64,000 bases of DNA. Source: Ruminococcus sp. GTDB taxonomy: Bacteria > Bacillota > Clostridia > Oscillospirales > Ruminococcaceae. The notes below the pieces were generated by a model. That model searched no databases. It was given only the letters and a program-made list of their open reading frames with translations, and was not told the DNA's origin. Below are positions 47,980 through 63,984 of the stretch, one piece after another. The first letter of the stretch is position 1. Each line of letters starts with the position of its first letter. The DNA is taken from assembly GCA_017462565.1 (NCBI GenBank), contig JAFTQW010000014.1, forward strand, positions 62,001-126,000, read 5' to 3'. Both the position numbers and the translations under genes were made by a program.

Positions 47980-48540
47980 TTATTTGGAGTTTATATAATC
48001 ATTTATTCCGCTGAAAATAGCGAAAGCAACCATGCTCTGATATTCGTCTGTGACAAGCAGCGCAGCTTCTTCCGGATTTGACAAGAATCCGCATTCAACC
48101 ATTACAGTTGGATTTTCGCTGTAATAGCAGAGAAAAAGCTCTTTGCCGCATTGTTTTATCTCACGTTTGTTATCAGGCTGAATAAATTCTACAAAGCGGT
48201 TCTGGATAGATCTCGCAAGATCTTCACTGCCGCTGTTTGAGGACGAATAAAACATTTGCGCTCCGCTGTATTTAGTCTCGTTGAATTGATTCTGGTGAAT
48301 CGAAACGCATACGGCATTGGAATTTTTATTGAAAATCGCTAAACGATTATCCATATCGCTGCTCTTCTGATTTGCAATGCCTTCAATGCCTTTGTCATGT
48401 ATCGAAACATCCTCGTCTCTTGTAACTTCAACCTCATAACCGCTTATTTCAAGAAGATCACGAACTTTTAACAGTATGCTTAGATTTATTCCTTTTTCGG
48501 GAATACCTTCCGCTGTTGTACAGCCGCCGTCAAATCCGCC
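47980..48540 (-). pseudogene. CwlD-like N-acetylmuramoyl-L-alanine amidase, 3' part (186 codons)
   Basis: Reading from 48540 without interruption: GGFDGGCTTAEGIPEKG, then LLKVRDLLEISGYEVEVTRDED, CVSIHQNQF and NPTVMVECGFLSNPEEAALL. These are the Amidase_3 zinc and catalytic motifs except for the first His. The natural start is missing; the upstream DNA is the left terminal repeat of the island. The first 57 codons are at 63814-63984 on the same strand. The enzyme class cleaves the lactyl-peptide bond of peptidoglycan; the length of 243 residues with one N-terminal membrane anchor fits CwlD, which prepares spore-cortex muramic lactam. A short in-frame ATG at 48354 could yield only a fragment. 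Confidence 0.88.
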
Positions 48541-48544
48541 ATGT
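48540..48544. repeat. Target-site duplication CATGT, left copy
   Basis: CATGT directly precedes the left terminal inverted repeat. The same five bases directly follow the right terminal repeat (63813-63817). On the coding strand of the amidase they read ACATG, part of the codons for G-H-G. Confidence 0.85.
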
Positions 48545-48562
48545 GGGGAATCAAATTAAACT
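48545..48562 (+). repeat. Left terminal inverted repeat of the island
   Basis: GGGGAATCAAATTAAACT; the 16 bases from GGAATC onward are the exact reverse complement of the right end. The four Gs at the tip and a 5-bp duplication are also seen in Tn3-family ends, but the rest of the sequence is not Tn3-like. Confidence 0.85.
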
Positions 48563-48577
48563 GGGTTTGTGTCAAGT
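48554..48577 (+). repeat. 24-bp direct repeat bounding the recombinase module, copy 1
   Basis: AATTAAACTGGGTTTGTGTC plus AAGT overlaps the inner side of the left end. It matches 51849-51872 at 19 of 24 positions, sharing the core TGTGTCAAGT. Confidence 0.55.
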
Positions 48578-48638
48578 CGGCGAACAGCTGATATTCTGCA
48601 TTTGCTATGAATACAGTAAATGCTTCGTTTTGTGTGTA

Positions 48639-48668
48639 TTGATTTTGGGAGGCAATGTATGGTATAAT
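48639..48668 (+). promoter_or_regulatory. Promoter of the CPBP gene
   Basis: TTGATT (48639-48644) and TATAAT (48663-48668) with an 18-bp spacer, about 40 bp before the start. Confidence 0.65.
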
Positions 48669-48705
48669 ATATGACAATGATTCAGGAGTTAAGGAGGATT
48701 GGGTA

Positions 48706-49494
48706 TTGAAAAAGAATATGTATATACCTATTGTGCAAGGAATGGCTGTGACAGCGATATTCCTTTTAACAGAGATAGTATTGAATCTATTGGGAGCATT
48801 TGACGGAGATATTCAGCTCTATCTGGTAGATATACCTATACGGCTTGTATTCGGAACTATTGCTCTTATATTGCTTGCCTTCAGTTTTAAAAAACAAAGG
48901 AGCAAGTTTAGCTTGAAGGAACTGTTTACGAATGCGATACCTAAAAGTGCCTATAAATTGCTCCTGCCATTCGTATTATTTCTGATAATTGAACTTTTGA
49001 CTATGATAACTGCTGAGGAAATTTCCATGAAAGCTTTAGGAATATTCGGTTTAAACTCTGTTCAGCAACTGACTACAGGATATTTTGAAGAAGCTTCCAG
49101 GGCTTTGTTGATGTGCGGACTTTTAAAATATAATATCAGTACAAAGAAAAACAGACTGTATACCATATTTATCGCAGGAATCTGTTTCGGGTTAAGTCAT
49201 ATGCTGAATTTCTTCTTTGGCAATGATATTCTTTCCACACTCTGGCAGGTTTTCAGCTGCTTTGTATGGGGACTTTTCGTTGCATCAATATATATGCTTT
49301 CTGAAAATCTTACATTAATAATGTTAATGCACGCTTTATGGGATATTATCATAAGAGTGCCGAATGCTTTTTGCAGACTGCCCGAAAATTCAATACTATT
49401 GGACGGTATGTACATAATTCAAGACATTATACAATTCGGAATTATGACGGCTGCGTCAGTCTATATTTGCATTAAATATGATAAATTGCGATGA
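48706..49494 (+). CDS. CPBP-family intramembrane metalloprotease
   Basis: This membrane protein of about 262 residues has seven or eight helices and the CPBP (CAAX protease/bacteriocin-processing) motifs: FEEASRALL (EExxR), FGLSHML (FxxxH) and MLMHALWDI. Bacterial members serve in peptide maturation or bacteriocin immunity; the substrate here is unknown. The start is TTG 48706, 8 bp behind AAGGAGG; the in-frame ATG at 48655 has no ribosome-binding site and overlaps the promoter. It is the first gene inside the island and has its own promoter. Confidence 0.78.
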   Translation: MKKNMYIPIVQGMAVTAIFLLTEIVLNLLGAFDGDIQLYLVDIPIRLVFGTIALILLAFSFKKQRSKFSLKELFTNAIPKSAYKLLLPFVLFLIIELLTMITAEEISMKALGIFGLNSVQQLTTGYFEEASRALLMCGLLKYNISTKKNRLYTIFIAGICFGLSHMLNFFFGNDILSTLWQVFSCFVWGLFVASIYMLSENLTLIMLMHALWDIIIRVPNAFCRLPENSILLDGMYIIQDIIQFGIMTAASVYICIKYDKLR

Positions 49495-49571
49495 ATTTTG
49501 ATATGAATTCAAAATAATGAAGAGTTACTTGTTTTCATTATAGATCAGTTTTGAGGACAATAATAAAATAT

Positions 49572-49601
49572 AAAAAACGGTAAGCCAAAAAGCTTACCGT
49601 T
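49572..49601 (-). terminator. Terminator of the serine recombinase gene
   Basis: AACGGTAAGC / GCTTACCGTT stem with six Ts on the minus strand; it overlaps the stop codon of the recombinase gene. Confidence 0.85.
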
Positions 49602-51171
49602 AAATTTTCCAATGGATATTGATCTCACGTTCATTATTCTCCTGAATCATATCTACCTCAATGAAGTCTATGAATTCCTCAACAATACTTCTGTCAAGGG
49701 CGGAGAAATGTGTGTATTTTTCAATCAGCGCTTTCTGATTTTCAGTATTTTCGCAGCGAATACGGTATTCCTTGATTTGCTTTTCTGTTTCGGCAATACG
49801 GCAGGATATTTCATGTTCCTCGGAGGAAAGGGTTTCTCGGAACATGAGGTAATCTGCATCAGAAATAATATCGTCGAGTCTGTCCTTGTACATTTTAGTC
49901 AGGCGATTCTTAGCAGTGCTGAGCTGAGAGTTAAGAAAGAAAATCTGCCGTTCCATATTTTGCATTTGTTCGCTTTTGATATCGACAATTGTAATGTTAT
50001 CAGCTTGGCAGTAGTTTTCAATGATACGATTCAGTTCATCGAGAATTTTCTGTTCAAGGACTTTTCCGCTGATAGACTTTGTGTTGGTACAGTCCATCGC
50101 TCCTGTTTTGTATGTAGCGCACTGCAAACCATAATACTTGATAGTTTTAGCCTTGTTGTAGTAGACATTTCGTTTCATAGGACGTCCGCAGACTGCGCAT
50201 CTGACTTTACCTGAAAGAGGAGAAAGCTCCTGCGAACGCTTTCCGACTCGTGTGTGACTATTGAGACGTTCCTGCGTCCGTGACCATGTCTCCATGTCTA
50301 TTATGGCTTCATGCGCGTCGGGGATACGCACCCAGTCAGCCTGCTCCACCTTTTTTCGCTTTTTGTTTTTATAGCTGATATGGTGAGATTTCCCCTGTAC
50401 CAGCGTTCCAGTGTACATTTCATTTCTGATAATTGCTGCAACCGTTGACTGCGTCCACAGTCCTTTTGAATTGCCGGAATCGGCGTTGGCATTGACGTAT
50501 TTTGAGCCTTTCTGTCGCTTATATTCACTGGGACTTATTGTGCCCTGATCGTTAAGCTCCTGAACTATTTTGCGGTAGCCCTCGCCGCTGACGTACATTT
50601 CAAATATCTGTCTGACAACCGGAGCAGTTTCCTCATCAATAACAAGATGATGCTTGTTCTCCGGATCAATCTGATAACCGTATGGAGCGAACGAGCCTAT
50701 GAACTGTCCCTGTGCACGCTTATAAGCAAGCGTTCGGCGAATCTTTGAGGAAATGTCCTTAACGTACATCTCGTTGTATGCGCTGGTAAAAAGCCTCATA
50801 GTGCCGTACATTTCACTGTCAGAGTCCGCATTGTCGGCAACTCCGATAAAACGGATTCCCCATTCAAGGAACTTATCGTTTATGTATTGCTCGATGACTA
50901 CGGTATCTCTGGAAAAACGTGACTGATCTTTACACAGAACTATGTCGATATTGCCCTTTTCGCAGTCGTGGAGAAGTCTGTTGAACTCGGGACGGCTGCG
51001 GTCAATGCCGCTGTAGCCGTCGTCAGCATATATGTCATATATCTCCCAGTCGCGCTCCCGACAATAATCACGCAGCATGGACTTTTGGTTCTGTATACTC
51101 TGACTGGCGTCGCCGCCTGATTTGTCTCTGTCCTCAATAGACAGACGGCAATATATACCTACTTTTGGCAC
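49600..51171 (-). CDS. Large serine recombinase
   Basis: The 523-residue site-specific recombinase has the resolvase catalytic domain (about 1-145: VGIYCRLSIEDRDKSG with catalytic Ser in DASQSIQNQ, YADDGYSGIDRSRPEFNRLL and KDQSRFSRD). Then comes a recombinase domain (about 165-270, APYGYQID, TQSTVAAIIRNEMYTG), a zinc ribbon (CAVCGRPMKRN ... C) and a coiled-coil C-terminal region (about 400-480). It appears intact. Such enzymes integrate and excise integrative elements between short att sites, with no terminal inverted repeats. It starts with GTG 51171 behind GGAGG, 34 bp after a 39-residue gene. Confidence 0.93.
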   Translation of the reverse strand: MPKVGIYCRLSIEDRDKSGGDASQSIQNQKSMLRDYCRERDWEIYDIYADDGYSGIDRSRPEFNRLLHDCEKGNIDIVLCKDQSRFSRDTVVIEQYINDKFLEWGIRFIGVADNADSDSEMYGTMRLFTSAYNEMYVKDISSKIRRTLAYKRAQGQFIGSFAPYGYQIDPENKHHLVIDEETAPVVRQIFEMYVSGEGYRKIVQELNDQGTISPSEYKRQKGSKYVNANADSGNSKGLWTQSTVAAIIRNEMYTGTLVQGKSHHISYKNKKRKKVEQADWVRIPDAHEAIIDMETWSRTQERLNSHTRVGKRSQELSPLSGKVRCAVCGRPMKRNVYYNKAKTIKYYGLQCATYKTGAMDCTNTKSISGKVLEQKILDELNRIIENYCQADNITIVDIKSEQMQNMERQIFFLNSQLSTAKNRLTKMYKDRLDDIISDADYLMFRETLSSEEHEISCRIAETEKQIKEYRIRCENTENQKALIEKYTHFSALDRSIVEEFIDFIEVDMIQENNEREINIHWKI

Positions 51172-51205
51172 TGACCTCGCCTCCTTGCATCAGATTTTAT
51201 TCTTG

Positions 51206-51325
51206 TCAGACTGTTTTCTTTGCTCGATCATTCACCAGCTTTTCTATCTTGGCAGTAACTGCCTTTTTCAGCAGTTCGGCATCACTCGATTTGAATGTAC
51301 TGGTAGTATGTATAACGTTTTTCAT
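51206..51325 (-). CDS. 39-residue protein upstream of the serine recombinase
   Basis: ATG 51325 follows AAGGAAGGAG and opens a 39-codon frame (MKNVIHTTSTFKSSDAELL, then KKAVTAKIEKLVNDRAKKTV). The tail is an amphipathic basic helix. Short genes just in front of large serine recombinase genes are common in clostridial integrative elements; their role, possibly regulation or directionality, is not known. Confidence 0.7.
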   Translation of the reverse strand: MKNVIHTTSTFKSSDAELLKKAVTAKIEKLVNDRAKKTV

Positions 51326-51409
51326 AGCGTTCACTCCTTCCTTTTGGATTTTATGCGGTGCAGTTGAATTATATGCTAAGCTTGACCTTTTTGTGCGTAT
51401 TTATGATTG

Positions 51410-51643
51410 TTATGCAAATATACCGGACAGATAGCTGATTATTTTAGCCGAGGCTATCAGATGATAACTGCTGTGCATAAAGAAGATCAGGGTGGTTCCA
51501 AATATCATGGTTATATTATAATGAACTCAGTGAATCTCAATAACGGTAAGCTGTACCACAGTGGTAATTCCGAACTTAAAAAGCTTGCAATGCATATTTA
51601 TGAAGTGACAGGTAATTATTGTAAGCCTGAGAACGAAAAGTGA
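51410..51643 (+). pseudogene. Relaxase (MobA/VirD2-like) fragment
   Basis: About 75 codons match the catalytic core of mobilisation relaxases: YQMITAVHKEDQGGSKYHGYIIMNSVNLNNGKLYHSGNSELKK. The family pattern HxDx4HxH reads HKEDQGGSKYHGY, so the last His has become Tyr. The N-terminal part and everything behind the first 80 or so residues are missing, and the start has no ribosome-binding site. It shows that the island, or a part of it, once belonged to a mobilisable element. Confidence 0.7.
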
Positions 51644-51703
51644 CATCAATTATTATACCAAATTAATATTGTAAATTATATAGCAGCTGTAGTTATTTAG
51701 AAA

Positions 51704-51723
51704 TCCTCCCCGTACGGGGAGGA
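51704..51723. repeat. Perfect 20-bp palindrome upstream of ugd
   Basis: TCCTCCCCGTACGGGGAGGA is a perfect palindrome and the only strongly GC-rich stretch in this region. It may be a binding site, a cruciform or a leftover transposon end. Confidence 0.6.
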
Positions 51724-51780
51724 CGGCTGTTATAATTCGCAAGTTTCCGCATAATTCTGAAAAACCGGTTATTTTACCTG

Positions 51781-51809
51781 TTGACAAGTTTTGGGATATA
51801 TGATATACT
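51781..51809 (+). promoter_or_regulatory. Promoter of ugd
   Basis: TTGACA (51781-51786) and TATACT (51804-51809) with a 17-bp spacer, about 135 bp upstream of the ugd start. Confidence 0.75.
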
Positions 51810-51848
51810 TTGAATAAATATAAAAATTTTTTCATATTTTATAAACCT

Positions 51849-51872
51849 AATTAAGAATGGTCTGTGTCAAGT
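51849..51872 (+). repeat. 24-bp direct repeat bounding the recombinase module, copy 2
   Basis: AATTAAGAATGGTCTGTGTC plus AAGT, the internal partner of the repeat at 48554-48577. The two copies enclose the CPBP-recombinase-relaxase module of 3.3 kb. Confidence 0.55.
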
Positions 51873-51945
51873 GAAAATTTGAAAAATTCGATGCAATGAC
51901 TGCATACTTTTGATAATATGTATAAATGTTTTGGGAGGTATTACT

Positions 51946-53195
51946 TTGGAAAAAAAGTTAAAAATAGCTGTCGCAGGTACGGGCTATGTGGGACTTAGTC
52001 TGGCGGTACTGCTGTCTCAGAACAATAAAGTATATGCTGTAGATATTATTCCTGAAAGGTGGATATAATTAATAATAAAAAATCACCAATACAGGATGAC
52101 TATATTGAAAAATATCTTGCTGAGAAGAAACTTGACCTTACAGCTACTCTTGATGCTGAATCGGCATATAAAGATGCAGATTTTGTAGTAATAGCTGCTC
52201 CTACCAACTATGACAGCCAGAAGAATTTCTTCGATACAAGCGCTGTTGAAGCAGTTATTGAGCTTGTAATGAAATATAATCCTGATGCCATAATGGTAAT
52301 AAAGTCCACTATTCCGGTAGGATACACTAAGTCTATCAGAGAAAAGACCGGTTCAAAGAATATTATTTTCAGCCCTGAGTTTCTTCGTGAGTCCAAGGCT
52401 CTTTATGATAATCTCTATCCAAGCCGTATTATCGTTGGCACTGATATGAATGACGAGCATCTTGTGGAGGCTGCTCATACTTTTGCTGCTCTGCTGCAAG
52501 AGGGTGCTATCAAGGAAAATATTGACACTTTGTTTATGGGATTCACTGAGGCTGAGGCTGTTAAGCTTTTTGCAAATACATACCTTGCACTCCGTGTAAG
52601 CTACTTCAACGAACTTGATACTTATGCCGAAATAAAGGGACTTGATACTCAGCAGATCATTAACGGAGTTTGTCTTGATCCGAGAATTGGTACTCATTAT
52701 AATAATCCAAGCTTTGGCTATGGCGGATATTGTCTGCCTAAGGACACAAAGCAGCTCCTTGCAAACTATAAGGATGTTCCGCAGAATATGATGACTGCTA
52801 TTGTTGAGTCAAATAAAACCCGTAAGGATTTTATTGCTGACAGAGTTCTTCAGCTTGCAGGCTACTATGCTTACGATGATAATTCTGCTTATGATAGGTC
52901 CAAGGAAAAACAGGTAACGATCGGTGTGTACAGGCTAACTATGAAGTCTAACAGCGATAATTTCCGTCAGAGTTCTATTCAGGGCGTTATGAAGAGAGTT
53001 AAGGCGAAAGGTGCTCAGATGATTATCTATGAACCGACTCTTAATGACGGAGACACATTCTTTGGAAGCCTTGTTGTAAATGATCTGGAAAAGTTCAAAT
53101 CTATGTCCGACTCTATTATTGCCAACAGATACGACGTTTGTCTTGACGATGTTCAGGATAAGGTCTATACAAGAGATATTTTTAATAGAGACTGA
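51946..53195 (+). pseudogene. ugd: UDP-glucose 6-dehydrogenase with a single frameshift
   Basis: TTG 51946 behind GGGAGGT starts [31 protein letters not shown], the NAD-binding Rossmann motif. The frame ends at 52068 (GAA AGG TGG ATA TAA). One more G near 52058 would continue it as [19 protein letters not shown] into the long frame that runs to 53195. That frame holds [41 protein letters not shown] and the catalytic Cys in [13 protein letters not shown]. The repaired length of 416 residues is normal. The enzyme would supply UDP-glucuronate for the polysaccharide. A downstream GTG at 52059 cannot give an active enzyme because the NAD site is lost. Sequencing error in one base is the alternative. 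Confidence 0.85.
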
Positions 53196-53288
53196 ATAGT
53201 GTATTTAAAGCGAGTATAAATATTATGATATGGATGCAGTTATTGCAGCTGCTCTTTCTAAGGCAAAAGAAGAATTGAAATAATATTG

Positions 53289-53320
53289 AAAAAAGCACAC
53301 CCGAAACGGTGTGCTTTTTC
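53289..53320 (+). terminator. Terminator downstream of ugd
   Basis: AAAAGCACACC and GGTGTGCTTTT with a 6-base loop and five Ts. Confidence 0.92.
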
Positions 53321-53540: not shown

Positions 53541-53569
53541 TTGACAAATATGTGGGGGAATGATATAAT
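53541..53569 (+). promoter_or_regulatory. Distal promoter of the polysaccharide cluster
   Basis: TTGACA (53541-53546) and TATAAT (53564-53569) with a 17-bp spacer; transcripts from here run into the hairpin at 53644. Confidence 0.75.
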
Positions 53570-53928: not shown

Positions 53929-54001
53929 CTAAAATGTATATTCTATGCGATTGTAAGCAGTTAATTACAAAGCATGAAATTTTTTAGGAGTGATTGGTTG
54001 T

Positions 54002-54451
54002 ATGAAGGTTTGCTTAGTTGGTTCAAGTGGCGGTCATCTCACACACTTATATATGCTTAAGCCTTTTTGGCAGAATAAGGAGAGGTTTTGGGTTACTTTT
54101 GATAAGGAGGATGCCCGCAGTTTACTTAATGGTGAAAAAATGTATGCATGCCATTATCCGACAAACAGGAACATCAAAAACCTCATTAGGAATACAATCC
54201 TTGCATTTAAAGTGCTTCGTAAAGAAAAACCCGATCTTATAATTTCTTCTGGTGCTGCAGTGGCGGTTCCTTTCTTTTGGCTCGGAAAACTGTACGGTGC
54301 AAAACTTATATATATTGAAGTGTTTGACAGAATAGACAAGCCTACTATAACGGGCAAACTTGTTTATCCCATTACAGATAAGTTTATTGTTGAATGGGAA
54401 GAAATGAAGAAGGTATATCCAAAAGCAATCAATCTTGGCTCAATTTTTTAA
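54002..54451 (+). CDS. Alg14/PssD-like glycosyltransferase subunit
   Basis: The 149-residue protein corresponds to Alg14, the membrane-anchoring acceptor subunit of a two-part GT28-type transferase. It begins MKVCLVGSSGGHLTHLYML and has PDLIISSGAAVAVPFFWLGKLYGAKLIYIEVFDRIDKPTITGKL. With its Alg13-like partner, encoded 15 bp downstream, it would add a sugar from a UDP donor to a lipid-linked precursor. ATG 54002 fits TTAGGAGTG at 53985; a GTG at 53990 lies inside that ribosome-binding site. Confidence 0.85.
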   Translation: MKVCLVGSSGGHLTHLYMLKPFWQNKERFWVTFDKEDARSLLNGEKMYACHYPTNRNIKNLIRNTILAFKVLRKEKPDLIISSGAAVAVPFFWLGKLYGAKLIYIEVFDRIDKPTITGKLVYPITDKFIVEWEEMKKVYPKAINLGSIF

Positions 54452-54466
54452 CGTGAGGATTAAAAT

Positions 54467-54967
54467 ATGATATTTGTTACAGTTGGAACTCATGAGCAGC
54501 CTTTTAACAGGCTTGTTAAAGAGATAGATTCATTAAAAGGAAACGGTGTCATTAGTGAAGATGTTATAATACAGACAGGATTTAGTACGTATGAACCCCT
54601 TTTTTGCGAGTGGAGCAAGCTATATCCGTATCAGGAAATGGTGAAAAAGGTTGCCGATGCAAGAATAGTTATCACACACGGCGGTCCTTCAAGCTTTATT
54701 ATGCCTCTTCAGATAGGAAAAATCCCGATTGTTGTGCCAAGAAAAAAAGCTTTTGACGAGCATGTAAACGATCATCAGGTTGAGTTTGCCAAAGCGGTTG
54801 CAGAACGTCAGGGAAATCTAATCGTTGTTGAAGATATTGGCGATCTGAAACAGACGATTCTCAATTATGACAATATTGTCGGTGCAATGCCGGCTGAGAT
54901 GAAGAGTAATAATAAAAACTTTAATTGCAAATTTGAGAAGATAGTAAACAGTTTATTTAAGCCATAA
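54467..54967 (+). CDS. Alg13/PssE-like glycosyltransferase catalytic subunit
   Basis: The 166-residue protein is the Alg13-type donor-binding half of the GT28-like transferase: MIFVTVGTHEQPFNRLVKEID, then ARIVITHGGPSSFIMPLQIGKIPIVVPRKKAFDEHVNDHQ, where HGG-S-S and the E-H-x-D-H-Q stretch bind the UDP-sugar. It needs the Alg14-like protein encoded just before it for membrane attachment. Start follows GTGAGGA. Confidence 0.88.
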   Translation: MIFVTVGTHEQPFNRLVKEIDSLKGNGVISEDVIIQTGFSTYEPLFCEWSKLYPYQEMVKKVADARIVITHGGPSSFIMPLQIGKIPIVVPRKKAFDEHVNDHQVEFAKAVAERQGNLIVVEDIGDLKQTILNYDNIVGAMPAEMKSNNKNFNCKFEKIVNSLFKP

Positions 54968-55052: not shown

Positions 55053-56084
55053 ATGCAGAAATTTGATGTAACGGTTATTATACCGGCATATAATTCCGAA
55101 AAAACCATTGAAAAATGTGTGGATAGTGTTCTGACACAAACTTTAAAAAATGTTGAAATAATAGTTGTAAATGATGGTTCTGTAGATTCAACATCAAAAA
55201 AGTTATCTAAATATAGTGAATACAGCCAGCTATCGGTGATTAATCAGGAAAATCACGGCGTTTCATACAGCAGAAATATTGGTATTAAAAATTCAAATGG
55301 TAAATATATATTTTTCCTGGATTCTGATGATTATATTGAAAAAGATTTGTTAAAGCAACTTTTTGATTACGCTGTGGAAAATGACCTGGATTTAGTTTCC
55401 GGAGATCATTTGGAGTGCAATTCAACCTTGTATGGAGGAAATGAAAGTAAAAAGGATACCTTTTTTGTACGTGGAAATGAAATAGGAAATCGTTTTTTGG
55501 ATGTATTTCCAAAATGCGTTTGGGCAAAATTATTCAGAACAGAGGTTATTAGAAGAAACGGCATTGTTTTTCCTGAAAAAATGTCTTTGGGAGAGGATCT
55601 TTACTTTTCATATCTTTTCTTTCTTAAAGCCGAGAGCATCGGAAAATGTTCGGGAGCCAAGTATATCGTTCAGAATGTAAATCCGAATTCACTGTCGAAA
55701 AAATACGTTCCCGGACTTGAAAATGATTTGGAAGAACAGTTGAGATTGTGGAAAAAGCTCGTCAAGAAATATCCGGCAATAGAATCAAATTATTATCTGA
55801 ATGAATATGATATAGAATTGTATTTTATTGCTGCATACATAAATAATCTATATAAATGGGATTGTCCCTTGAGCAAAAAGGAAAAGCGAGAGCTTTTAAA
55901 TCAGTATTTAATTTCAAAGAAAGAAATAATTATATCGGCGGGGAAGGGCATCAAGTGTCCAAAAAATCGTTATCAGAAGATACTTTCTATGGTCTTAAAG
56001 ACTAGGAATGCATTTTTAATCGGACTTTTTTTTAAAACAAAAGAAAAGATAAAAGTATACAAATTTAATCGTTCAAAGGAATAA
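55053..56084 (+). CDS. Family 2 glycosyltransferase
   Basis: The 343-residue protein has a GT-A fold of family 2: VTVIIPAYNSEKTIEKCVDSVLTQT, VVNDGSVDST, GVSYSRNIGIKNSNGKYIFFLDSDDYI (DxD) and an acidic SLGEDLYFSYLF motif. The C-terminal 100 residues are basic and may touch the membrane. It adds one sugar to the repeat unit; donor and linkage cannot be told. Start follows AGGAG. Confidence 0.92.
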   Translation: MQKFDVTVIIPAYNSEKTIEKCVDSVLTQTLKNVEIIVVNDGSVDSTSKKLSKYSEYSQLSVINQENHGVSYSRNIGIKNSNGKYIFFLDSDDYIEKDLLKQLFDYAVENDLDLVSGDHLECNSTLYGGNESKKDTFFVRGNEIGNRFLDVFPKCVWAKLFRTEVIRRNGIVFPEKMSLGEDLYFSYLFFLKAESIGKCSGAKYIVQNVNPNSLSKKYVPGLENDLEEQLRLWKKLVKKYPAIESNYYLNEYDIELYFIAAYINNLYKWDCPLSKKEKRELLNQYLISKKEIIISAGKGIKCPKNRYQKILSMVLKTRNAFLIGLFFKTKEKIKVYKFNRSKE

Positions 56085-56165
56085 TACAAATTTAACAGAG
56101 AATAAAAACGCCAAAAATAATGAATGTATTATTTTATAAGAATATGATAGGTGGAATTGAAATTT

Positions 56166-57164
56166 ATGGATAACGAGAAGGAAAAAATAGATTTTGTATT
56201 GTTATGGGTGGACGATAATGATCCGAAATGGATAGATGAATATAACAAGTATAGAACCGATGACGGTGATACAAGAAGTCTAAGATACAGAGACATGAAT
56301 TTGTTAAAATATTGGTTCAGGGCAGTCGAAAAATTCACACCATGGGTAAACAATATATATTTTGTAACCTGTGGTCAAAAACCTGATTTTCTTAATGTAG
56401 ATCATCCTAAGCTGAAGTGTGTTGATCATAAGGACTTTATTGAGCAAAAATATCTTCCAACTTTTTCAAGCCATGCCATAGAGGTAAACCTTCATCGTAT
56501 TAAAGGATTAAGTGAACAGTTTGTCTACTTTAATGATGATATGTTTGTTGTTTCTCCAATGAAAAAGACAGATTTTTTTGTTGACGGAAAACCTTGTGAA
56601 GCTGCTGTTATGGATATGTTTGTACCAATCAGAGAGCCATTGTTCACACCTCCTTGTGCAAATGCAGTTGTAATAAATAGAAATTTTGTGAAAAAAGATG
56701 TTCTGAAGAAAAATTTTAGAAATTTTTATAGTCTGAAATATGGAAAGGACGTCGTAAAGAATATTCAGCTTTCAGTTGGAAGATATTTTGCGGGTTTTCA
56801 TAATTATCATCAGCCTACTTCGTTGTTAAAGTCTACTTTTAATGAAGTATGGGGGCTGGAAGCGGAAGTCCTGAGAAGATCTACTTCACATAGATTCAGA
56901 ATATTGACCGATGTAAATCAGTGGCTTTTTAAGGATTGGCAGATATGCAAGGGAAATATTTATCCAAGAAGCGTAAAAAAATGTTATTATATAGTAATAG
57001 ATAATAAAAATGATTTAAAAAATGCTGTTGCGGCTCTGGATTCAAGAAAATATAAATTAGTATGCCTGAATGACGGAAGAATTGATGATTTTGATGCCGT
57101 TAAATCAGATTTGACAAATGCTTTTGAACGACTTTTGCCTGAAAAAAGTTCATTTGAAAAGTGA
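56166..57164 (+). CDS. Stealth-family sugar-phosphate transferase
   Basis: The 332-residue protein carries the Stealth conserved regions: CR1 IDFVLLWVDDNDPKW, the region RYRDMNLLKYWFRAVEKFTPWVNNIYFVTCGQKP, CR2 LSEQFVYFNDDMFVVSPM, and CR3-like HNYHQPTSLLKSTFNEVW. Stealth proteins move a hexose-1-phosphate onto a glycan, giving phosphodiester-linked capsules. The polymer may therefore contain sugar phosphates. ATG 56166 is preferred over GTG 56151, which is part of the ribosome-binding region. It overlaps nothing and is followed by a pyruvyl transferase gene. Confidence 0.9.
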   Translation: MDNEKEKIDFVLLWVDDNDPKWIDEYNKYRTDDGDTRSLRYRDMNLLKYWFRAVEKFTPWVNNIYFVTCGQKPDFLNVDHPKLKCVDHKDFIEQKYLPTFSSHAIEVNLHRIKGLSEQFVYFNDDMFVVSPMKKTDFFVDGKPCEAAVMDMFVPIREPLFTPPCANAVVINRNFVKKDVLKKNFRNFYSLKYGKDVVKNIQLSVGRYFAGFHNYHQPTSLLKSTFNEVWGLEAEVLRRSTSHRFRILTDVNQWLFKDWQICKGNIYPRSVKKCYYIVIDNKNDLKNAVAALDSRKYKLVCLNDGRIDDFDAVKSDLTNAFERLLPEKSSFEK

Positions 57165-57205: not shown

Positions 57206-58321
57206 ATGAAAATTGGATTAGTAACATTTCACAGAGCTGAAAATTATGGAGCGCTGCTTCAATGTATAGCGCTGTATACATACATTAAGAACAAAGGGTA
57301 TGATATTGAGATAATTGACTATAGAAGTGATGCTGTTGAAAGTCCTTACAATATATATCCGAAAGTAGAAAATAATCCAATCAAGTATTTGTCCTCAAGT
57401 TTCTTTTCATTCATCAATAAAAAGAAGCTTGAGGAAAGAAAAGAAGAGTTTAATAAAGTTCGCAGGCTATTGAAGCATTCAGAGTCGGTAAATTCCGAAA
57501 CGATAGAAAATCTGGATTATGATGTATATATCTCAGGAAGCGATCAATTGTGGAATACGGAGATAACTCATGGCTTTGATAATGCATATCTTCTGAATTT
57601 TAAAACGAATGGTATAAAAGCAACTTATGCAATGAGTATAGGAAATTGTAATAATCCGGATTATAAAAAAGAGTTTTTTATAAATGCAGTAAAAAACTTT
57701 GATTTTATCTCGATGAGGGAGAAGGATGCTGTTAATTTTATTTCAGAAATATCCGAAAGAAATGATATAGATTTTGTTATTGATCCTACCTTGCTTTTGT
57801 CCAAAGATGAATGGGATAAATTGATCGGTAATGAGAAAAAACATAAAATCCCGGAAAGATATATTCTTTTGTATTATGTAAAATATGATAAGAATCTTGA
57901 AAGAATGGCAGATGCTGTTTCAAGAGAATATGGCATACCTGTTGTATACATTAATTCTAATCCGAGAAGACCTATTTTATATAAATTCAGGAATAAAGTT
58001 TTCAAAATGTCTTTTGTTGGACCTCTTGATTTTGTAAGTTTAATAAAAAATGCTTCATGTGTAGTTACAAATTCATTTCATGGAACTGCATTTTCATGTA
58101 TATATAACAAGGATATTTTTATGCTTTTGCCAGAAGGTACAGGCTCAAGACTGGAGTCGATAGCGAATGTGTTTGGAATACAGAACAGAATTTTCAAATC
58201 TTACGATGTCTTCCTTGAGAAATATAAAGATTGCAGTATTGATTACCGTTTTGACAAGTTTGATGCATTAAAAATCAAGTCTGAAAAATATATATCCAGA
58301 CTGTTAGATAAAAGTAGATGA
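57206..58321 (+). CDS. Polysaccharide pyruvyl transferase, first copy
   Basis: The 371-residue protein of the PF04230 type puts a pyruvate ketal on a sugar, using phosphoenolpyruvate. Visible are MKIGLVTFHRAENYGALLQCIALYTYI, YDVYISGSDQLWN, FISMREKDAVNFI, VIDPTLLLSKDEW and CVVTNSFHGTAFSCIYNKDIF. ATG 57206 follows TGGAGATC. The enzyme shares its layout with the second copy, from which it is separated by a degenerate 349-bp gap. Confidence 0.88.
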   Translation: MKIGLVTFHRAENYGALLQCIALYTYIKNKGYDIEIIDYRSDAVESPYNIYPKVENNPIKYLSSSFFSFINKKKLEERKEEFNKVRRLLKHSESVNSETIENLDYDVYISGSDQLWNTEITHGFDNAYLLNFKTNGIKATYAMSIGNCNNPDYKKEFFINAVKNFDFISMREKDAVNFISEISERNDIDFVIDPTLLLSKDEWDKLIGNEKKHKIPERYILLYYVKYDKNLERMADAVSREYGIPVVYINSNPRRPILYKFRNKVFKMSFVGPLDFVSLIKNASCVVTNSFHGTAFSCIYNKDIFMLLPEGTGSRLESIANVFGIQNRIFKSYDVFLEKYKDCSIDYRFDKFDALKIKSEKYISRLLDKSR

Positions 58322-58670
58322 AATGTGAATTAGATGGAGACTTCATGTCCTTAATTAAGCTTAAATTTGTTATCACACAGGAACAGAAAATTGCACACTT
58401 TATAATTGCAGGTTAGGATAATGAAACAAAAATGCGTTTCAATAAGTGAAAACTTGCAATTGGTTTGTATACTCAAAAAATATAATATAGAAAGTTAGGC
58501 TTTAACCTTAAATATGGTATAGCCCAAAAATAATATGGAGGAGTATACCGCAAGTAGTCCGATGTATACAAATTATGTATTTGCATAATCAATAGAGTTC
58601 GGGTTATATAATCATTTTAGCCTTTGTTTTTTTACAGACAGTGCAGTAGTGTATTGCGGTATTATTTATT
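58322..58670. other. Degenerate gap between the pyruvyl transferase genes
   Basis: No gene is seen. Only an 18-codon remnant frame at 58535-58588 (MEEYTASSPMYTNYVFA) and scattered AT-rich promoter-like boxes are present. The stretch probably held a gene that was lost. Confidence 0.55.
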
Positions 58671-59744
58671 ATGAAGATAGGAATATTAACTTTTCATAGA
58701 GCTTCAAATTATGGAGCTGTTTTACAGGCTTATGCACTTTCTGAAATGGTAAAAAAATTCGGTTGCAGTGTAGAAATTATTGATTATCGCTGTCCTGAAG
58801 TTGAAATGGCGCACAGACCCTTTGCTTCCTTTAAAAAGCAAAAATGGTATAAAGCTGCCGTATATTTCATAGGTAAATGTAAAAACGGAAAAACGTTTGA
58901 TAAATTCAGGAATAGAAGGTTGCAGTTATCTGAAATGTATACAAGAGATAATGTTGGTACTATAAAAGATAAATATGATATATTTATCTCAGGATCAGAT
59001 CAGGTATGGAGCAAACGTTTCTCTGGTTTTGATAAAACATATCTGTTGGATTTTGTTGATGATGACAGAAAAAAATATTCATATGCTGCAAGTTTTGGTT
59101 TTACATCATTTCCTGAAAATACAAAGGATGTATATCAGAAATACCTTGAAAAATTTCAAATGATTTCTTTGCGGGAAAAAACAGCGGTGGATTTGTTGAA
59201 AAATGAGTGTGGTATAGATTCATGTGTATGTCTTGATCCAACTTTAATTCTTGGTAAAGATGAATGGTTGAAATTTTCGGCAAAACCTGATTTAAACGAA
59301 AAATATATTTTGGTATATACCGTTCAACAGCCTGTTGGACTTTTAAATTATGCAAGAAAACTCTCTGAAGAAAAAGGATTAAAGCTCATCTATTTAAATA
59401 ACAGCCGAAGAAAAGATCTTGATATAAAGCATATCAGATATTCAACACCTGAAGAATTTGTTGGCTTTTTTGCCAATGCTGAATATGTGCTTACGAATTC
59501 GTTTCATGGAACAGCTTTTTCTATTATATTTAATAAAGAGCTTGTAGTTGAAATAAAAACTCAAAAAAGTGTTAATACCAGAAGCGAGGATTTGCTGAAG
59601 TTGTGTAAAATTGATGACAGAATAATTAGTGATAATTACAGCGATTTTAAGATGTCGGAAATTAACTGGCAGAATGTAAATCAAAGGCTTGAAAATGAAA
59701 AGAAAAAATCAGTGGAATATCTTAAATGCATATGTAAAAATTAA
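58671..59744 (+). CDS. Polysaccharide pyruvyl transferase, second copy
   Basis: The 357-residue protein repeats the PF04230 motifs: MKIGILTFHRASNYGAVLQAYALSEMV, YDIFISGSDQVWSKRF, MISLREKTAVDLL, CLDPTLILGKDEW and YVLTNSFHGTAFSIIFNKELV. Identity to the first copy is moderate, so the two probably modify different sugars. The ribosome-binding site is poor (GCGGT), which suggests weak initiation or coupling to the degenerate gap upstream. Confidence 0.87.
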   Translation: MKIGILTFHRASNYGAVLQAYALSEMVKKFGCSVEIIDYRCPEVEMAHRPFASFKKQKWYKAAVYFIGKCKNGKTFDKFRNRRLQLSEMYTRDNVGTIKDKYDIFISGSDQVWSKRFSGFDKTYLLDFVDDDRKKYSYAASFGFTSFPENTKDVYQKYLEKFQMISLREKTAVDLLKNECGIDSCVCLDPTLILGKDEWLKFSAKPDLNEKYILVYTVQQPVGLLNYARKLSEEKGLKLIYLNNSRRKDLDIKHIRYSTPEEFVGFFANAEYVLTNSFHGTAFSIIFNKELVVEIKTQKSVNTRSEDLLKLCKIDDRIISDNYSDFKMSEINWQNVNQRLENEKKKSVEYLKCICKN

Positions 59745-59760
59745 AAGAGGAGTATAGCAG

Positions 59761-61170
59761 ATGAGCCGAGAAGGAAATCTTGCAAAAAACACGGGAATAC
59801 TTGCAATTGGTACTTTTTTGCCAAAATTGGCTTCGTTTATAACTTTGCCGATTTTAACGGGATATTTATCAAAGGCACAGTATGGTACATATGATTTGAT
59901 TATCACGCTTGCCTCTCTCTTTTTGCCGGCTGTGACATTACAGATTCAGACTGCCGCTTTCAGATTTTTAATAGAAGTCAGATCTGAGGAAAAAAAGATT
60001 AAATCTATCATATCGAATATACTGATGTTTATTGTGCCTATTTCTTTATTAGGCGTAATAATACTATATTTTTGTTTATATAAAATTGAAAGCCGTATAA
60101 GGTTGCTTGTATGTTGCTACTATTTGTTTGATATAGTTGTAAATGTGTTTAGACAGATAGCAAGAGGACTTTCCAAAAATCTTAATTATTCCTTAAGTGC
60201 TATAATAAGTTCAGTTTTACAGCTGATTTTTGTGGTTTTATTTGTTTTTGTATTGAAAATCAATTTATTTGGTGCTGTTCTTGCGCTGACAGTATCAGAG
60301 ATATTATCGGCATTATATATTTTTCTGAGTGTAAGAATTTATAAATATGTAGACATTAAAGCCTTTGATAAATCAGAGCTTAGGCGAATGATTGCTTATT
60401 CTTGGCCAATGGTTCCAAATTCAATGTCCATGTGGGTAATGAGAGTTTCTGACAGACTTGTTTTAACTTTTTTTAGGGGGGTGTCAGCCAATGCTGTTTA
60501 TGCTGTAGCAAATAAGATTCCACAGTTGCTGACTATTGCACAGACTACATTTACTATGGCGTGGCAGGAGAATGCGACAATAGTTTCCAAAGATGAAGAT
60601 GCTCCGAAATATTATTCTACTATGTACAGAACATTATTTGATTTGATGGCTGGTGCAATGATGATTATTATTGCTTGTACACCGGTGCTTTTTGCAATAC
60701 TTGTACGTGGAGATTATTCTGAAGCATATATACAGATTCCTATATTGCTGCTTGCTATGTTTTTCTATGCCATGAGTACATTTTTAGGCGGCATATATGT
60801 AGCTTATATGAAAACCAAGAATGTTGGAATTACAACAATTATAGCAGCAGCATTGAATATAATTATAGATGTATCATTGGTTCATTTTATAGGGCTTTAT
60901 GCAGCATCTTTATCCACTCTTGTAAGCTATATATTTCTTTTTTTCTATAGAATCATTGATGTTAGAAAAATTGTACCGATAAATTATGATAAGAAACATA
61001 TGATATTTGTATTTATAATTATGACTCTTATAAGTGCATTGTGTATGTTGCATAATAATATTGCGAACATTTTTAATTTTGTAATTGCATTGATTGCATT
61101 TGTTGTTATGAATAAGGAATTTTTAAAAGTAATATTCAATAGTTTGAAAGCAAAGCTTGTAAGGAGATAG
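59761..61170 (+). CDS. Wzx-type oligosaccharide flippase
   Basis: The 469-residue membrane protein has about twelve to fourteen helices and the N-terminal layout of polysaccharide flippases (NTGILAIGTFLPKLASFITLPILTGYLSKAQYGTYDLIITLASLFLP). It would move the lipid-linked repeat unit across the membrane for outside polymerisation. Start follows GAGGAG, 16 bp after the pyruvyl transferase gene. Confidence 0.9.
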   Translation: MSREGNLAKNTGILAIGTFLPKLASFITLPILTGYLSKAQYGTYDLIITLASLFLPAVTLQIQTAAFRFLIEVRSEEKKIKSIISNILMFIVPISLLGVIILYFCLYKIESRIRLLVCCYYLFDIVVNVFRQIARGLSKNLNYSLSAIISSVLQLIFVVLFVFVLKINLFGAVLALTVSEILSALYIFLSVRIYKYVDIKAFDKSELRRMIAYSWPMVPNSMSMWVMRVSDRLVLTFFRGVSANAVYAVANKIPQLLTIAQTTFTMAWQENATIVSKDEDAPKYYSTMYRTLFDLMAGAMMIIIACTPVLFAILVRGDYSEAYIQIPILLLAMFFYAMSTFLGGIYVAYMKTKNVGITTIIAAALNIIIDVSLVHFIGLYAASLSTLVSYIFLFFYRIIDVRKIVPINYDKKHMIFVFIIMTLISALCMLHNNIANIFNFVIALIAFVVMNKEFLKVIFNSLKAKLVRR

Positions 61171-61173
61171 GCT

Positions 61174-62403
61174 ATGGAAAATAAATTTCTTGATTCAACA
61201 AGATATATTAATCTTGAAAATAAAAAAATAAATAAGGATTTGCCTGAATTATATAGTAATAAGGAAAATTGCTGCGGCTGCGGTGCGTGCTATTCAATAT
61301 GCCCTGTTTCTGCAATAATTATGCAGGAAGATGGGGAGGGCTTTTTATATCCGTCTGTATATGCAGATAAATGCATAGGCTGTTACAAATGCTTAAAGGT
61401 TTGTTCGTTTAATCCAAAAAAATTTTCTGATAAAGCTGATGATGAATCAGATATATATTTAGATGAAACTAAAGTTTATGCTTCACGAATTAAAAATCAG
61501 GAAATTTTAGCAAAAAGTTCATCTGGAGGAATGTTTACTGCTTTTACAGATTATTTGATTGATAATAATTATGCTGTCGTTTGCAGTATAATGGACTATG
61601 AAAATAAAACTCTTGAATTTTCAATTGTTAATGATAAAAATAAGCGTGATGAGGCAAGAGGTTCAAAATATTTTCAAAGTGACTCTAAAAATATATTTTC
61701 AGAGTCAATAGCCTATTTAAAAGCTGATGCTAATCATAGAATTGCATTTGTTGGAACTGGGTGTCAGACAGAAGCATTTAGAAAATATATATATATGCAC
61801 AACTTAAATGACAGAGTATTACTTATTGATATAATTTGTCATGGTGTACCCAGCAAAAAAATTGTTATGGAATATATCAAATATCTTACAGGCGGTACCG
61901 GAGAATTTGACTATATTACTTACAAGGATAAAAGAAACGGTTGGAGTAAACCTGTAAGTTTAATTAAATATGATAACAAGGAATACAAATTAAATAAAGA
62001 TATTTGCTATAATGCTAATACAATAAGACTGTCATGCAATGTTTGTCCATACACTAAAACAAAAAGAAAATCTGATATTACGATAGGAGATTTTTGGGGA
62101 ATAGAGAAACAACACCCTGAATTTTATTCAGAAACAGGCAATTCATTAGTTCTTATACACAGTAAAAAGGGAATGGAATTATTTAACCGTATAAAGCCAG
62201 ATATTGAATATGTAGAAAGTTCAGTAGACAAGTGTTTGCAGCCTAATTTGAAAAAGCCTACAATGAGAAGCAAAGACAGGGCTAAATTTTGGAACGATTA
62301 TAATTCTAAGTCATTTTCTTATGTTGTAAAAAAGTATGAAATGATTGGATTATATAAAAAAATCCGTAATAAAGCCAAGAAAATTATCCGTGGAAAAAAG
62401 TGA
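61174..62403 (+). CDS. F420-hydrogenase/dehydrogenase beta-subunit-like ferredoxin protein
   Basis: The 409-residue protein has an N-terminal pair of 4Fe-4S motifs (CCGCGACYSICPVSAI and CIGCYKCLKVCSF, about 33-83) and a C-terminal domain of the F420-reducing hydrogenase beta type (FVGTGCQTEAFRKY, IDIICHGVPSKKI, RLSCNVCPYTKTKRKSDITIGDFWGIEK). Genes of this class are frequent in capsule and exopolysaccharide clusters, where they may reduce or modify a sugar or pyruvyl group. The reaction is unknown. It starts 3 bp behind the flippase stop with AAGGAG. Confidence 0.85.
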   Translation: MENKFLDSTRYINLENKKINKDLPELYSNKENCCGCGACYSICPVSAIIMQEDGEGFLYPSVYADKCIGCYKCLKVCSFNPKKFSDKADDESDIYLDETKVYASRIKNQEILAKSSSGGMFTAFTDYLIDNNYAVVCSIMDYENKTLEFSIVNDKNKRDEARGSKYFQSDSKNIFSESIAYLKADANHRIAFVGTGCQTEAFRKYIYMHNLNDRVLLIDIICHGVPSKKIVMEYIKYLTGGTGEFDYITYKDKRNGWSKPVSLIKYDNKEYKLNKDICYNANTIRLSCNVCPYTKTKRKSDITIGDFWGIEKQHPEFYSETGNSLVLIHSKKGMELFNRIKPDIEYVESSVDKCLQPNLKKPTMRSKDRAKFWNDYNSKSFSYVVKKYEMIGLYKKIRNKAKKIIRGKK

Positions 62404-62457
62404 TACTTCAAGGGTTATTGTAGTAGTGTTCAGGAACAGAAAGGTGAGTTTAATACT

Positions 62458-63687
62458 GTGAAAGCAATTTCTATTAAATTACGTTTTAAAAAAATTACTT
62501 TGATTGAACTTGTTCTTTCATTGTGTTTTTTTTCATTCTATCTTCCAAATCAGGAATCTGTTTCAGGTAAAGTATATACTATATGGCGATTAGCGTGTTT
62601 ATTAGCTACGGCTTGTGCTGTGTTGATATATATTGTCAAATGCCATAATAAAATATCTCTGAAGTATATATCAATTGTTTTGTTTTTCACATATATTTAT
62701 ATTGGAACGTCAATTCTGACTCCGGGCGGACATTTCCCTAAATTTACTTTTTTATGTGTAATTGGATTTATAACATTATTAGAAGTTAGTTTTCAGACTT
62801 TTCCTAAAAAAGTTGTTATCCGTTCATATCTAAAAGCAGGAATAGCGGCAAGCATAGTTTATTTTATAACATTTGTAAAATATTTTAATGTAGATGGCGG
62901 TATGCACAGCGGTCTTATGGTAAAAACAGGATACGGAATGGTTGAAACACATCAAAATTGGTATATTTTCACTTATGACAATGCATCAGTTTTTATATTT
63001 CTTCCAATAGCTGCTGCACTTTTATATTACTGTTATAACTATCAGAAAAAGGCAACGAAAGTTTATATAGGTTATATAGTATTAATATTGTTTATGTATA
63101 TCTCTAAAATGGCTGTTGCTGCCATGATTTCATTTGTTCTTTTTGTTGCTTTAACATGGTATTATTTTAGAATGTATAATAAAAACAAAAGAATAAAATT
63201 AAAATTAACTTACTTGAATGTCCTTGCTATGGGATTGCTTTTATATATTGTAGTAATTTCATTTGTAGGAAGTGATTTAAGCTATACTATATCAGGATTT
63301 TTCGGCAAGGATGGAACTTTTACCGGCAGAGATGTAATATGGGCAAATGCGATTAAATATATTGTGAAATATCCTGTTTTCGGAAATGGTCTTGAATCAG
63401 AGGCAGTAAGATATGCTAAAATTATGATGGGACAATGTCATAATATATTGTTGGAAATTTTATATGATGGTGGTTTGATTGGCATTATCCTTTTGGTTTT
63501 TGCTGTTTATCAATTTAAGCCTAAAAAAAGTAATACATATTCAGCATATATTTTTTCGATTTGTTTATTTTGTTACATCATCGCAGCAGGATTTGATGCT
63601 AAATTAGGATTTCCTTACCCAATAGCAATTCTTTATTTTTCTTATTATTTAGAAGATAAACCACGACTTTTAAAAAAATCAACTTAA
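62458..63687 (+). CDS. Wzy/O-antigen-ligase-like polymerase
   Basis: The 409-residue membrane protein has about ten helices and a large periplasm-facing loop (LMVKTGYGMVETHQNWYIFTYDN) plus the Wzy_C-type segment FTGRDVIWANAIKYIVKYPVFGNGLESEAVRY, with the typical GRD-x-W and NGLE residues, ending in CHNILLEILYDGGLIGIILL. It would polymerise the repeat units outside the membrane. GTG 62458 follows AAAGGTGAG. It is the last gene inside the island. Confidence 0.88.
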   Translation: MKAISIKLRFKKITLIELVLSLCFFSFYLPNQESVSGKVYTIWRLACLLATACAVLIYIVKCHNKISLKYISIVLFFTYIYIGTSILTPGGHFPKFTFLCVIGFITLLEVSFQTFPKKVVIRSYLKAGIAASIVYFITFVKYFNVDGGMHSGLMVKTGYGMVETHQNWYIFTYDNASVFIFLPIAAALLYYCYNYQKKATKVYIGYIVLILFMYISKMAVAAMISFVLFVALTWYYFRMYNKNKRIKLKLTYLNVLAMGLLLYIVVISFVGSDLSYTISGFFGKDGTFTGRDVIWANAIKYIVKYPVFGNGLESEAVRYAKIMMGQCHNILLEILYDGGLIGIILLVFAVYQFKPKKSNTYSAYIFSICLFCYIIAAGFDAKLGFPYPIAILYFSYYLEDKPRLLKKST

Positions 63688-63754
63688 AATTTATGTAAAG
63701 TATCAGCTCAATAGCTTAGCACTCAATGTATATGCACTGATGCAGTGAAATAAA

Positions 63755-63779
63755 GAAGCTCCCCGACAAAGGGAGCTTC
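63755..63779 (-). terminator. Terminator just inside the right end of the island
   Basis: GAAGCTCCC and GGGAGCTTC form a 9-bp stem with a T-rich tail on the minus strand (TTTATTT). It would stop transcription entering from the amidase promoter, 35 bp inside the island. Confidence 0.65.
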
Positions 63780-63795
63780 AATGCTTTATGAACTA

Positions 63796-63812
63796 AGTTT
63801 AATTTGATTCCT
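63796..63812 (-). repeat. Right terminal inverted repeat of the island
   Basis: AGTTTAATTTGATTCCT; 16 bases are the exact reverse complement of the left end. It reads out of the amidase 5' fragment, adding four foreign codons (EESN) and a stop. Confidence 0.85.
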
Positions 63813-63817
63813 CATGT
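63813..63817. repeat. Target-site duplication CATGT, right copy
   Basis: Same five bases as at 48540-48544. Confidence 0.85.
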
Positions 63818-63984
63818 CCTGCATCAAGGACAATAACAGGAGGCTCATTCTCTTGTGAGAGCATAGCGACGGGAACAGCGTCGCTCTTGGCTTTCTGACT
63901 GATTTTAGCGGCGGCGCTGAGTCCTATGACCGCACAGCCGAAGATAACTGCTCCGCCGATAATTTTACGTTTGATCTTATTCAT
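63814..63984 (-). pseudogene. CwlD-like N-acetylmuramoyl-L-alanine amidase, 5' part (57 codons)
   Basis: ATG 63984 follows AAAGGAG and opens MNKIKRKIIGGAVIFGCAVIGL, a membrane anchor or signal, then a linker and PPVIVLDAGH, the first zinc-ligand motif of Amidase_3 enzymes. Behind His the frame enters the right island end and stops after EESN. The remaining 186 codons are at 47980-48540. The promoter and ribosome-binding site stay with this half, so the other half is very probably silent. Confidence 0.9.

Follow-up and report, generated by a model that had tools for sequence, protein, structure and literature searches.

Gene-intervening elements that split sporulation genes are the closest described counterparts of the locus reported here. 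The island gin in gerE of Bacillus cereus ATCC10987 is not a phage, splits a sporulation gene, carries its serine recombinases internally, shows a short direct repeat at the joint and has a separate directionality factor, GirX (PMC5595907). In skin of Clostridioides difficile a large serine recombinase lies within the split mother-cell gene sigK, and a small directionality factor, CD1234 (72 aa), is under sigma-E control (PMC5025042). Excision of SPbeta from spsM restores the split gene during sporulation of Bacillus subtilis (PMC4191935), and yin is inserted in the sporulation-associated gene yabG of Clostridium botulinum (PMC10747680). Here we describe a 15.3-kb segment that splits a CwlD-like amidase gene in a rumen Ruminococcus. 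The source genome is a 2.63-Mb draft in 66 contigs, and all coordinates are positions in the 64-kb stretch of DNA that was analysed (the window). We concluded that the segment is almost certainly a site-specific integrative island of a large serine recombinase. Our joint reading, to which we give a probability of about 0.6, is that it represents a gene-intervening element of the skin or gin kind in the CwlD-like gene, and that its excision probably takes place in the mother cell.

The locus differs from gin in the target gene and in the recombinase; gin carries three recombinases and its excision was demonstrated (PMC5595907), that of the present island being predicted from sequence. SPbeta is an active prophage with another target (PMC4191935), yin is prophage-like and lies in another gene (PMC10747680), and unlike skin (PMC5025042) the present elements carry glycan or other genes as cargo. 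Among the literature matches listed, the intervening elements named all lie in other genes and none in a gene of the cwlD type; subscription journals were poorly covered in this search and priority is unproved. Likewise, the search returned nothing that combined cwlD with a serine recombinase, or a serine recombinase with polysaccharide biosynthesis and Ruminococcus flavefaciens.

Both parts of the amidase gene lie on the minus strand. The 5' part (63813..63984) runs from the start codon to VLDAGH and the 3' part, or C-half (47980..48544), begins with the crossover codon and ends with the stop. When 48545-63812 and one copy of CATGT (copies at 48540-48544 and 63813-63817) were removed and the flanks were joined in silico, an open reading frame of 243 codons containing VIVLDAGHGGFDGG was restored, so that excision at these ends would give back the amidase reading frame. 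The initial annotation, made from the letters of the window, had described this joined 243-residue amidase, a Wzy-type glycan island inserted precisely within its gene, and, at its two ends, inverted repeats that match perfectly over 16 bp, and all three were confirmed. The 16-mer GGAATCAAATTAAACT occurs in exactly two copies in its own genome, at 48547-48562 (plus strand) and 63796-63811 (minus strand), and the nearest further matches there carry 2 mismatches. A second exact pair, for which a genome-wide search had been proposed, was not found in the own genome. The inverted repeats continue imperfectly to 24 nt (88% identity), and their spacing to CATGT is unequal, with GG on the left and T on the right. 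With one mismatch allowed, 5 copies of the 16-mer were detected in 100 genomes of the genus, and those in genomes G031 and G065 are split-amidase junctions by their coordinates. Scans of 47000-64000 and of the window for RNA families or transfer RNAs as insertion landmarks gave none.

To place these ends in context we compared ten complete elements, i.e. elements with both ends, the window's own included, some of them pieced together from adjoining stretches of one contig. They span 3.8 to 66.8 kb. The break point was the same CA in the His codon of the amidase motif VLDAGHGG in 10/10 elements; in the window this crossover dinucleotide, with which the His codon begins, lies within CATGT at 48542..48543 on the side of the C-half (C side) and at 63815..63816 on the side of the 5' part (N side), both on the minus strand. 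The direct repeat running through CA varied among the ten elements, being CA, CATG, ACATG, CACGGCG, TCACGGCG or ACATGGCG, of which ACATGGCG is the longest, and CA alone was present in G002, G058 and G142. With a variation of 2 to 8 bp only CA is constant, and one cannot properly speak of a 5-bp duplication. The CATGT identity seen earlier thus stands, whereas its interpretation as a target-site duplication does not.

Comparison of the half-sites identified the element end on the C side, TGGGGAATCAAATTAAACTGGGTT (48544..48567, plus strand), as the P arm, one half of a putative attachment site attP, and the end on the N side, TGAGGAATCAAATTAAACTTAGTT (63791..63814, minus strand), as the P' arm, the other half. 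Read outward from CA, N-side and C-side half-sites followed one common consensus, TGGCGAATCAACTTAAAC. The similarity of the two arms was 0.75 within an element and 0.62 between elements (permutation p=0.00025). G142, with the most divergent recombinase (52% identity), also has divergent arms, which have GCGTATGT in common. Judged from these half-sites, the supposed terminal repeats correspond to P and P' of a palindromic attP, and what looked like a target duplication is a chance identity of the bases on either side of CA.

The predicted sites were also found in other combinations. A whole-attP pattern with up to 2 mismatches matched in 20/125 genomes of the genus, mostly at hybrids of the amidase N side with P' (N/P'). 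Palindromes joining P and P' (P/P') were present on contigs of G063, G125, G143, G010, G022 and G080; a further attP palindrome, at locus L094, was detected by profile with weaker scores, and one P/P' candidate in G142 (C8) by pattern only. The N/P' pattern gave 42 junctions in 34/125 genomes, and its reversed control gave 0; the pattern missed the own genome, so this count is an undercount. In 25/48 recombinase loci a P arm joined to the amidase C side or to P' was located at most 4 kb downstream of the recombinase gene (raw count 28, minus three 5' fragments of the N/P' type that face the recombinase). Thus attB, attP and both hybrid junctions all occur in genomes of the genus, as site-specific recombination predicts.

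These results bear on the origin proposed in the initial annotation, a DDE transposon or a miniature inverted-repeat transposable element (MITE) with 16-bp terminal repeats and a 5-bp target duplication, mobilised by a transposase in trans or grown by later insertions. The perfect inverted repeats and the 5-bp direct repeat of this single copy favour such an origin. Against it stand one fixed target codon, the same in the ten elements and hit in many species, the variable length of the direct repeat, the lack of another identical repeat pair in the genome, and the fact that the ends are attP arms of the kind that form attP palindromes elsewhere. No DDE transposase was found among the island proteins scanned against Pfam (the ten larger proteins, then further ones), as had been stated; what had been missed is the large serine recombinase inside the island. 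We consider a DDE transposon or MITE very improbable. A relic of a composite transposon was likewise rejected, as no further exact copies of the repeat exist in the own genome.

The recombinase (49600..51171, minus strand, 523 aa; PF00239, PF07508, PF13408 and PF14287) unites Resolvase, Recombinase and zinc-ribbon domains in one protein of about 500 aa inside the element. Among solved protein chains YokA, the SPbeta recombinase SprA, was its best match by sequence, which adds to the likeness with SPbeta, and TnpX came next. Mobilizable elements of the Tn4451/TnpX type and staphylococcal cassette chromosome (SCC) elements have a large serine recombinase adjoining its attachment site. The present island resembles them in the matches to the TnpX chain and to the CcrB/CcrC models and in a relaxase remnant described below; it differs in its attachment sites, and the CcrB/CcrC scores (134 of 900 bits) are far under the equivalog cut-offs for SCC.

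Excision by serine recombinases in known systems requires a directionality factor. An open reading frame of 39 aa (ORF39; 51206..51325, minus strand) lies 34 bp before the recombinase gene and was recovered in 47/48 regions upstream of recombinases, L097 being the one without it. The loci L060-L107 contributed 46 of these regions, L095 and L101, in which the recombinase lacks its first codons, being dropped; L113 and the window complete the 48. By position and conservation ORF39 is the obvious candidate for the directionality factor.

We propose that the recombinase joins the near-palindromic attP, with P and P' around the central CA, to attB at the His codon of VLDAGHGG. Recombination of attP with attB at CA would create N/P' and the hybrid of P with the amidase C side (P/C), leaving the amidase split, and the reverse reaction, with ORF39 as candidate directionality factor, would restore the amidase exactly. 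Indirect signs that this recombinase acts on these sites are its co-occurrence with the split gene and the covariation of the two arms, both described in this report. In growing cells the element would be quiet and its glycan locus usable; in the mother cell it would be excised and the amidase restored.

The split recurs across the genus. A search with the amidase in 60 relatives gave several in which the gene is interrupted at the residue used in the window. The states of the amidase were then tallied by hand in 125 genomes of the genus; among the 124 other than the own genome 69 were intact, 35 were split, and 20 were unmatched, partial or represented by a 5' fragment only. The intact gene across the junction, for which a search in relatives had been proposed, was observed, and G026 provides a two-sided empty site for the element of G002: the gene order on both sides of its intact amidase is common to G002, where the gene is split by 17.8 kb containing glycan genes and a recombinase. 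Among the genus genomes compared, no two-sided empty site was found for the window's own flanks; the intact G135 shares the C-side genes in part only, the two nearest being absent.

A recombinase match (E<=1e-150) was present in 30/125 genomes, the own included. The amidase was split in 26/28 recombinase-positive genomes and in 9/76 without a recombinase match (Fisher p=9e-15, uncorrected for relatedness; the table omits the own genome and the 20 unscorable ones, among these the recombinase-positive G010). G125 and G063 are recombinase-positive with an intact amidase. No intact second amidase copy was listed for any of the 35 split genomes. At 61% identity or above we counted 48 recombinase loci (L060-L107), and L113 and L123 are short fragments. 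A truncated C-half preceded by an arm of the window's type was present in 26/48 loci. The remaining 22 had an intact gene (L064), a 5' fragment only (L082, L091) or no amidase part by protein search, this search being limited to the 10-kb flank or contig around each recombinase.

At several C-side ends (for example L067, L068, L075, L077 and L084) inspection by eye suggested a promoter of the sigma-A type (TTGACA-N17-TATAAT) and, behind it, a GGCTATTTTAAGCC hairpin, both directed outward into the amidase 3' half. About 7.6 kb downstream of the intact amidase of G099 (L212) there is, at ~11511, another amidase C-half that carries a P arm.

The recombinase carriers among the named loci belong to R. 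flavefaciens, Ruminococcus sp. and bins labelled Oscillospiraceae or Clostridia. The R. flavefaciens strains XPD3002, ND2009 and YRD2003 have split amidases, and YL228 and MA2007 carry an intact amidase behind attP. As named strains carry the recombinase besides metagenome bins, excision is directly testable. A viral origin was considered and rejected, since all phage and plasmid matches to the recombinase were below 60% identity and none of the viral contigs scanned (1 of 8 possible scans) contained the attP pattern exactly.

We read the island as a gene-intervening element because the amidase is CwlD-like and the recombinase operon has a sigma-E-like motif in common with it. CwlD is a mother-cell gene in known spore formers. 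Spo0A_C and SpoIVA are present in the own genome; its SigE-family protein scored 347.6 bits against a spore_sigmaE cut-off of 348.6, and a SpoIIIAA homologue is present with a score under the equivalog cut-off. In the genus, spore_sigmaE matches (E<=1e-90) were obtained in 110/125 genomes, 35 of them above the cut-off, and SpoIIIAA in 36/40, none above it. Sporulation genes and spores have been reported for R. bromii, and the passages of the same paper contain no statement on sporulation of R. flavefaciens (PMC5814915). In C. difficile both cwlD and CD1234, the directionality factor of skin, belong to the sigma-E genes (PMC5025042, PMC3789822), and the sigma-E promoters have an ATA motif at -35 and a -10 that resembles that of sigma-K (PMC3789822).

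The ORF39-recombinase operon is preceded by a motif like that of a sigma-E promoter, GCATATA-N14-CATAAAAT (51348..51376, minus strand), with a score of 13/15. Scoring followed the sigma-E consensus KMATATT-N13..15-CATACAHT; related genomes were treated as independent in all motif scans. The upstream regions of ORF39-recombinase operons reached a mean of 12.04/15, against 10.28 in dinucleotide shuffles; 35/47 scored at least 12 against 8.6% of the shuffles, and 30/47 combined such a score with a spacing of 14 and a similar position. Upstream of amidases (18 intact loci and the window) 12/19 scored at least 12, against 7.9% of shuffles. Among 442 comparison genes 22 reached 12 and 8 reached 13, and 7 of these 8 were intact amidases; this set includes intact amidases, one recombinase gene and, where stretches overlap, some duplicates (of the 465 proteins present before filtering, 432 were distinct). 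The common promoter motif, the type of gene and the C. difficile precedent together suggest the mother cell as the probable time of excision, which we hold to be somewhat better than an even chance.

The split halves have remained open. No stop codon was found in 58 C-halves (28 split, 30 intact), and in the split loci listed the C-half is open over at least 190 codons. Between G000 and G031, both split and with both flanks in common, the ratio of nonsynonymous to synonymous substitutions (dN/dS) was 0.011 for the C-half at a dS of 0.79, and about 0.05 for the N-half. The median dN/dS was 0.09 for split-intact pairs (n=28) and 0.04 for intact-intact pairs (n=17). Such low values would fit a gene that is still in use after the split. 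The islands of G000 and G031 share little besides the recombinase (81% identity) and a UDP-glucose dehydrogenase (94% identity). With a dS of 2.9 (near saturation) for the recombinase and 1.3 for the dehydrogenase, these genes are far above the flanks (~0.27), which indicates an exchange or a separate acquisition of the island at this site.

Several observations weigh against an element that is excised to restore a spore gene. Neither excision nor a circle nor heterogeneous junctions were observed, although assemblies cannot reveal excision. ORF39 had no confident family match in profile searches. Nine genomes with a split amidase have no recombinase match. The C-half is opposite in strand to the recombinase in L103 and L105, and so is a 5' fragment with P' in L073, L080, L082 and L085; in G002 the recombinase is located at the N side. 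The best NCBIfam match of the intact G026 amidase homologue was TIGR02883 (spore_cwlD) with 199 bits, under the equivalog cut-off of 221.6. The own amidase has two upstream sites, both scoring 12, TCATACT-N14-CATATTCT and one with a spacing of 15. As a positive control SpoIVA of the own genome lacked the motif (best 10/15), and SpoIIIAA showed it in part only, with 12/28 at 12 or above against 7.9% of shuffles, 11 of the 12 with a spacing of 14 (2/30 loci were dropped and start codons were set by rule). The skin recombinase of C. difficile has a sigma-A promoter (PMC5025042), whereas the recombinase and ORF39 here seem to be under one sigma-E-like promoter. The C-half dS of 0.79 between G000 and G031, against ~0.3 in the N-half and flanks, indicates that the history of the C-half differs from that of its surroundings. 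The median dN/dS of split-split pairs, 0.17 (n=7), is above that of intact-intact pairs, so some relaxation is possible, and the constraint could also reflect recent insertion. Large glycan loci were present in only 4/10 complete elements (G000, G031, G002, G032), the others differing in cargo, and at least 3 glycan-like stretches in 4/48 partial loci, two of which are G031 and G002 again; the partial loci end at 10 kb, so this count is a lower bound.

A rival explanation is an ordinary serine-recombinase island that inactivated the amidase, with no developmental excision. The halves would then be intact since the insertions are recent or the loss is near-neutral; that no excision was seen, the varied cargo, the raised split-split median and the turnover of islands between G000 and G031 speak for it. 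It is harder to reconcile with 28/28 split C-halves without stops, with 35 other species that have a split gene and no intact copy listed, and with a recombinase operon that carries the sigma-E-like motif of the amidase. We regard such a plain island as possible, at distinctly less than even odds, and prefer a gene-intervening element.

The remaining part of the island is mostly cargo on the plus strand. A gene for an Rce1/CAAX-type membrane protease (48655..49494, PF02517) lies next to the C-side end. Upstream of the recombinase operon a relaxase remnant of the MobA/VirD2 type (51407..51643, 78 aa) matched PF03432 with E=1.1e-4 and 23.0 bits, just under the cut-off of 24.6; weaker matches were seen in L071, L088, L067 and L048. 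It is followed by a gene for UDP-glucose 6-dehydrogenase (51947..53195, assigned by Pfam), the frame of which is broken near 52056. The homologue in G031 (L045, 3009-4259) is open, and the broken frame may be a pseudogene or an assembly error. The glycan genes proper encode an Alg14-like glycosyltransferase subunit (53990..54451, PF08660), a subunit of the GT28 C-terminal type (54467..54967, PF04101), a GT2 glycosyltransferase (55053..56084, PF00535), a Stealth-family protein (56151..57164, PF11380), two polysaccharide pyruvyl transferases (57206..58321 and 58671..59744, both PF04230), a Wzx-like flippase (59761..61170, PF01943), a ferredoxin/FrhB-type oxidoreductase (61174..62403, PF04432) and a Wzy-like polymerase or ligase (62458..63687, PF04932). 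A small palindromic repeat, TTAAGGCAACACCGCACAAAG and its inverse, is present at 53638-53693, with a further arm outside the island at 47727-47741 (3 matches, 0.05 expected), and the same word also occurs upstream of the recombinase operon of L079.

Glycan cargo is recurrent in these elements, not defining. The smallest complete element (G039) contains two genes of nucleotide-sugar type by inspection, and the five others carry other genes. Some loci have a serial order. In G068 (L208) three amidase 5' modules ending in P', i.e. N/P' scars, follow one another ahead of an intact amidase; in G125 (L190/L191) the order is recombinase, attP (P/P'), cargo, N/P', cargo and intact amidase, and G063 (L192/L211) has the same parts over two contigs. 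In these three genomes and in L050/L051 (G035) the extra amidase 5' copies ending in P' are alone or serial, some at contig ends. Isolated N/P' fragments in L058 (G033) and L059 (G008) adjoin sodium/alanine symporter-like genes, as noted by eye, with differing relative orientation.

The array order would follow from an N/P' circle inserting at P/C, or from homologous recombination between 5' modules. One explanation, compatible with a gene-intervening element, is a cassette array, in which the recombinase and P form the platform and each N/P' scar would mark a piece of cargo captured in its turn upstream of the amidase, in part through homologous recombination between the repeated 5' modules. 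The triple scars of G068, the orders in G125 and G063, the frequency of N/P' junctions against a reversed control of 0, and the P arm found in 25/48 loci at most 4 kb downstream of the recombinase gene all speak for an array. The ten complete elements, all of them single units from N/P' to P/C, do not, the founding event is left unexplained, and the G063 order crosses contig ends. We consider the array rather unlikely. In a wider version that would span the genus, which we hold more speculative still, a sigma-E-controlled recombinase and P arm at a spore amidase would capture, exchange between species and stack, in arrays of att scars, whole surface-glycan loci or other cargo, and the amidase would be restored by mother-cell excision or by a cassette with a new amidase 5' end. 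If this were true, lysis of the mother cell would release the excised circles.

A gene-intervening element in the CwlD-like gene would account for the movement of a Wzy-type glycan locus as one block in rumen Ruminococcus. It would place vegetative surface-glycan genes inside an apparent spore gene, and the spore gene would be a safe harbour, in which the split costs the host during sporulation only.

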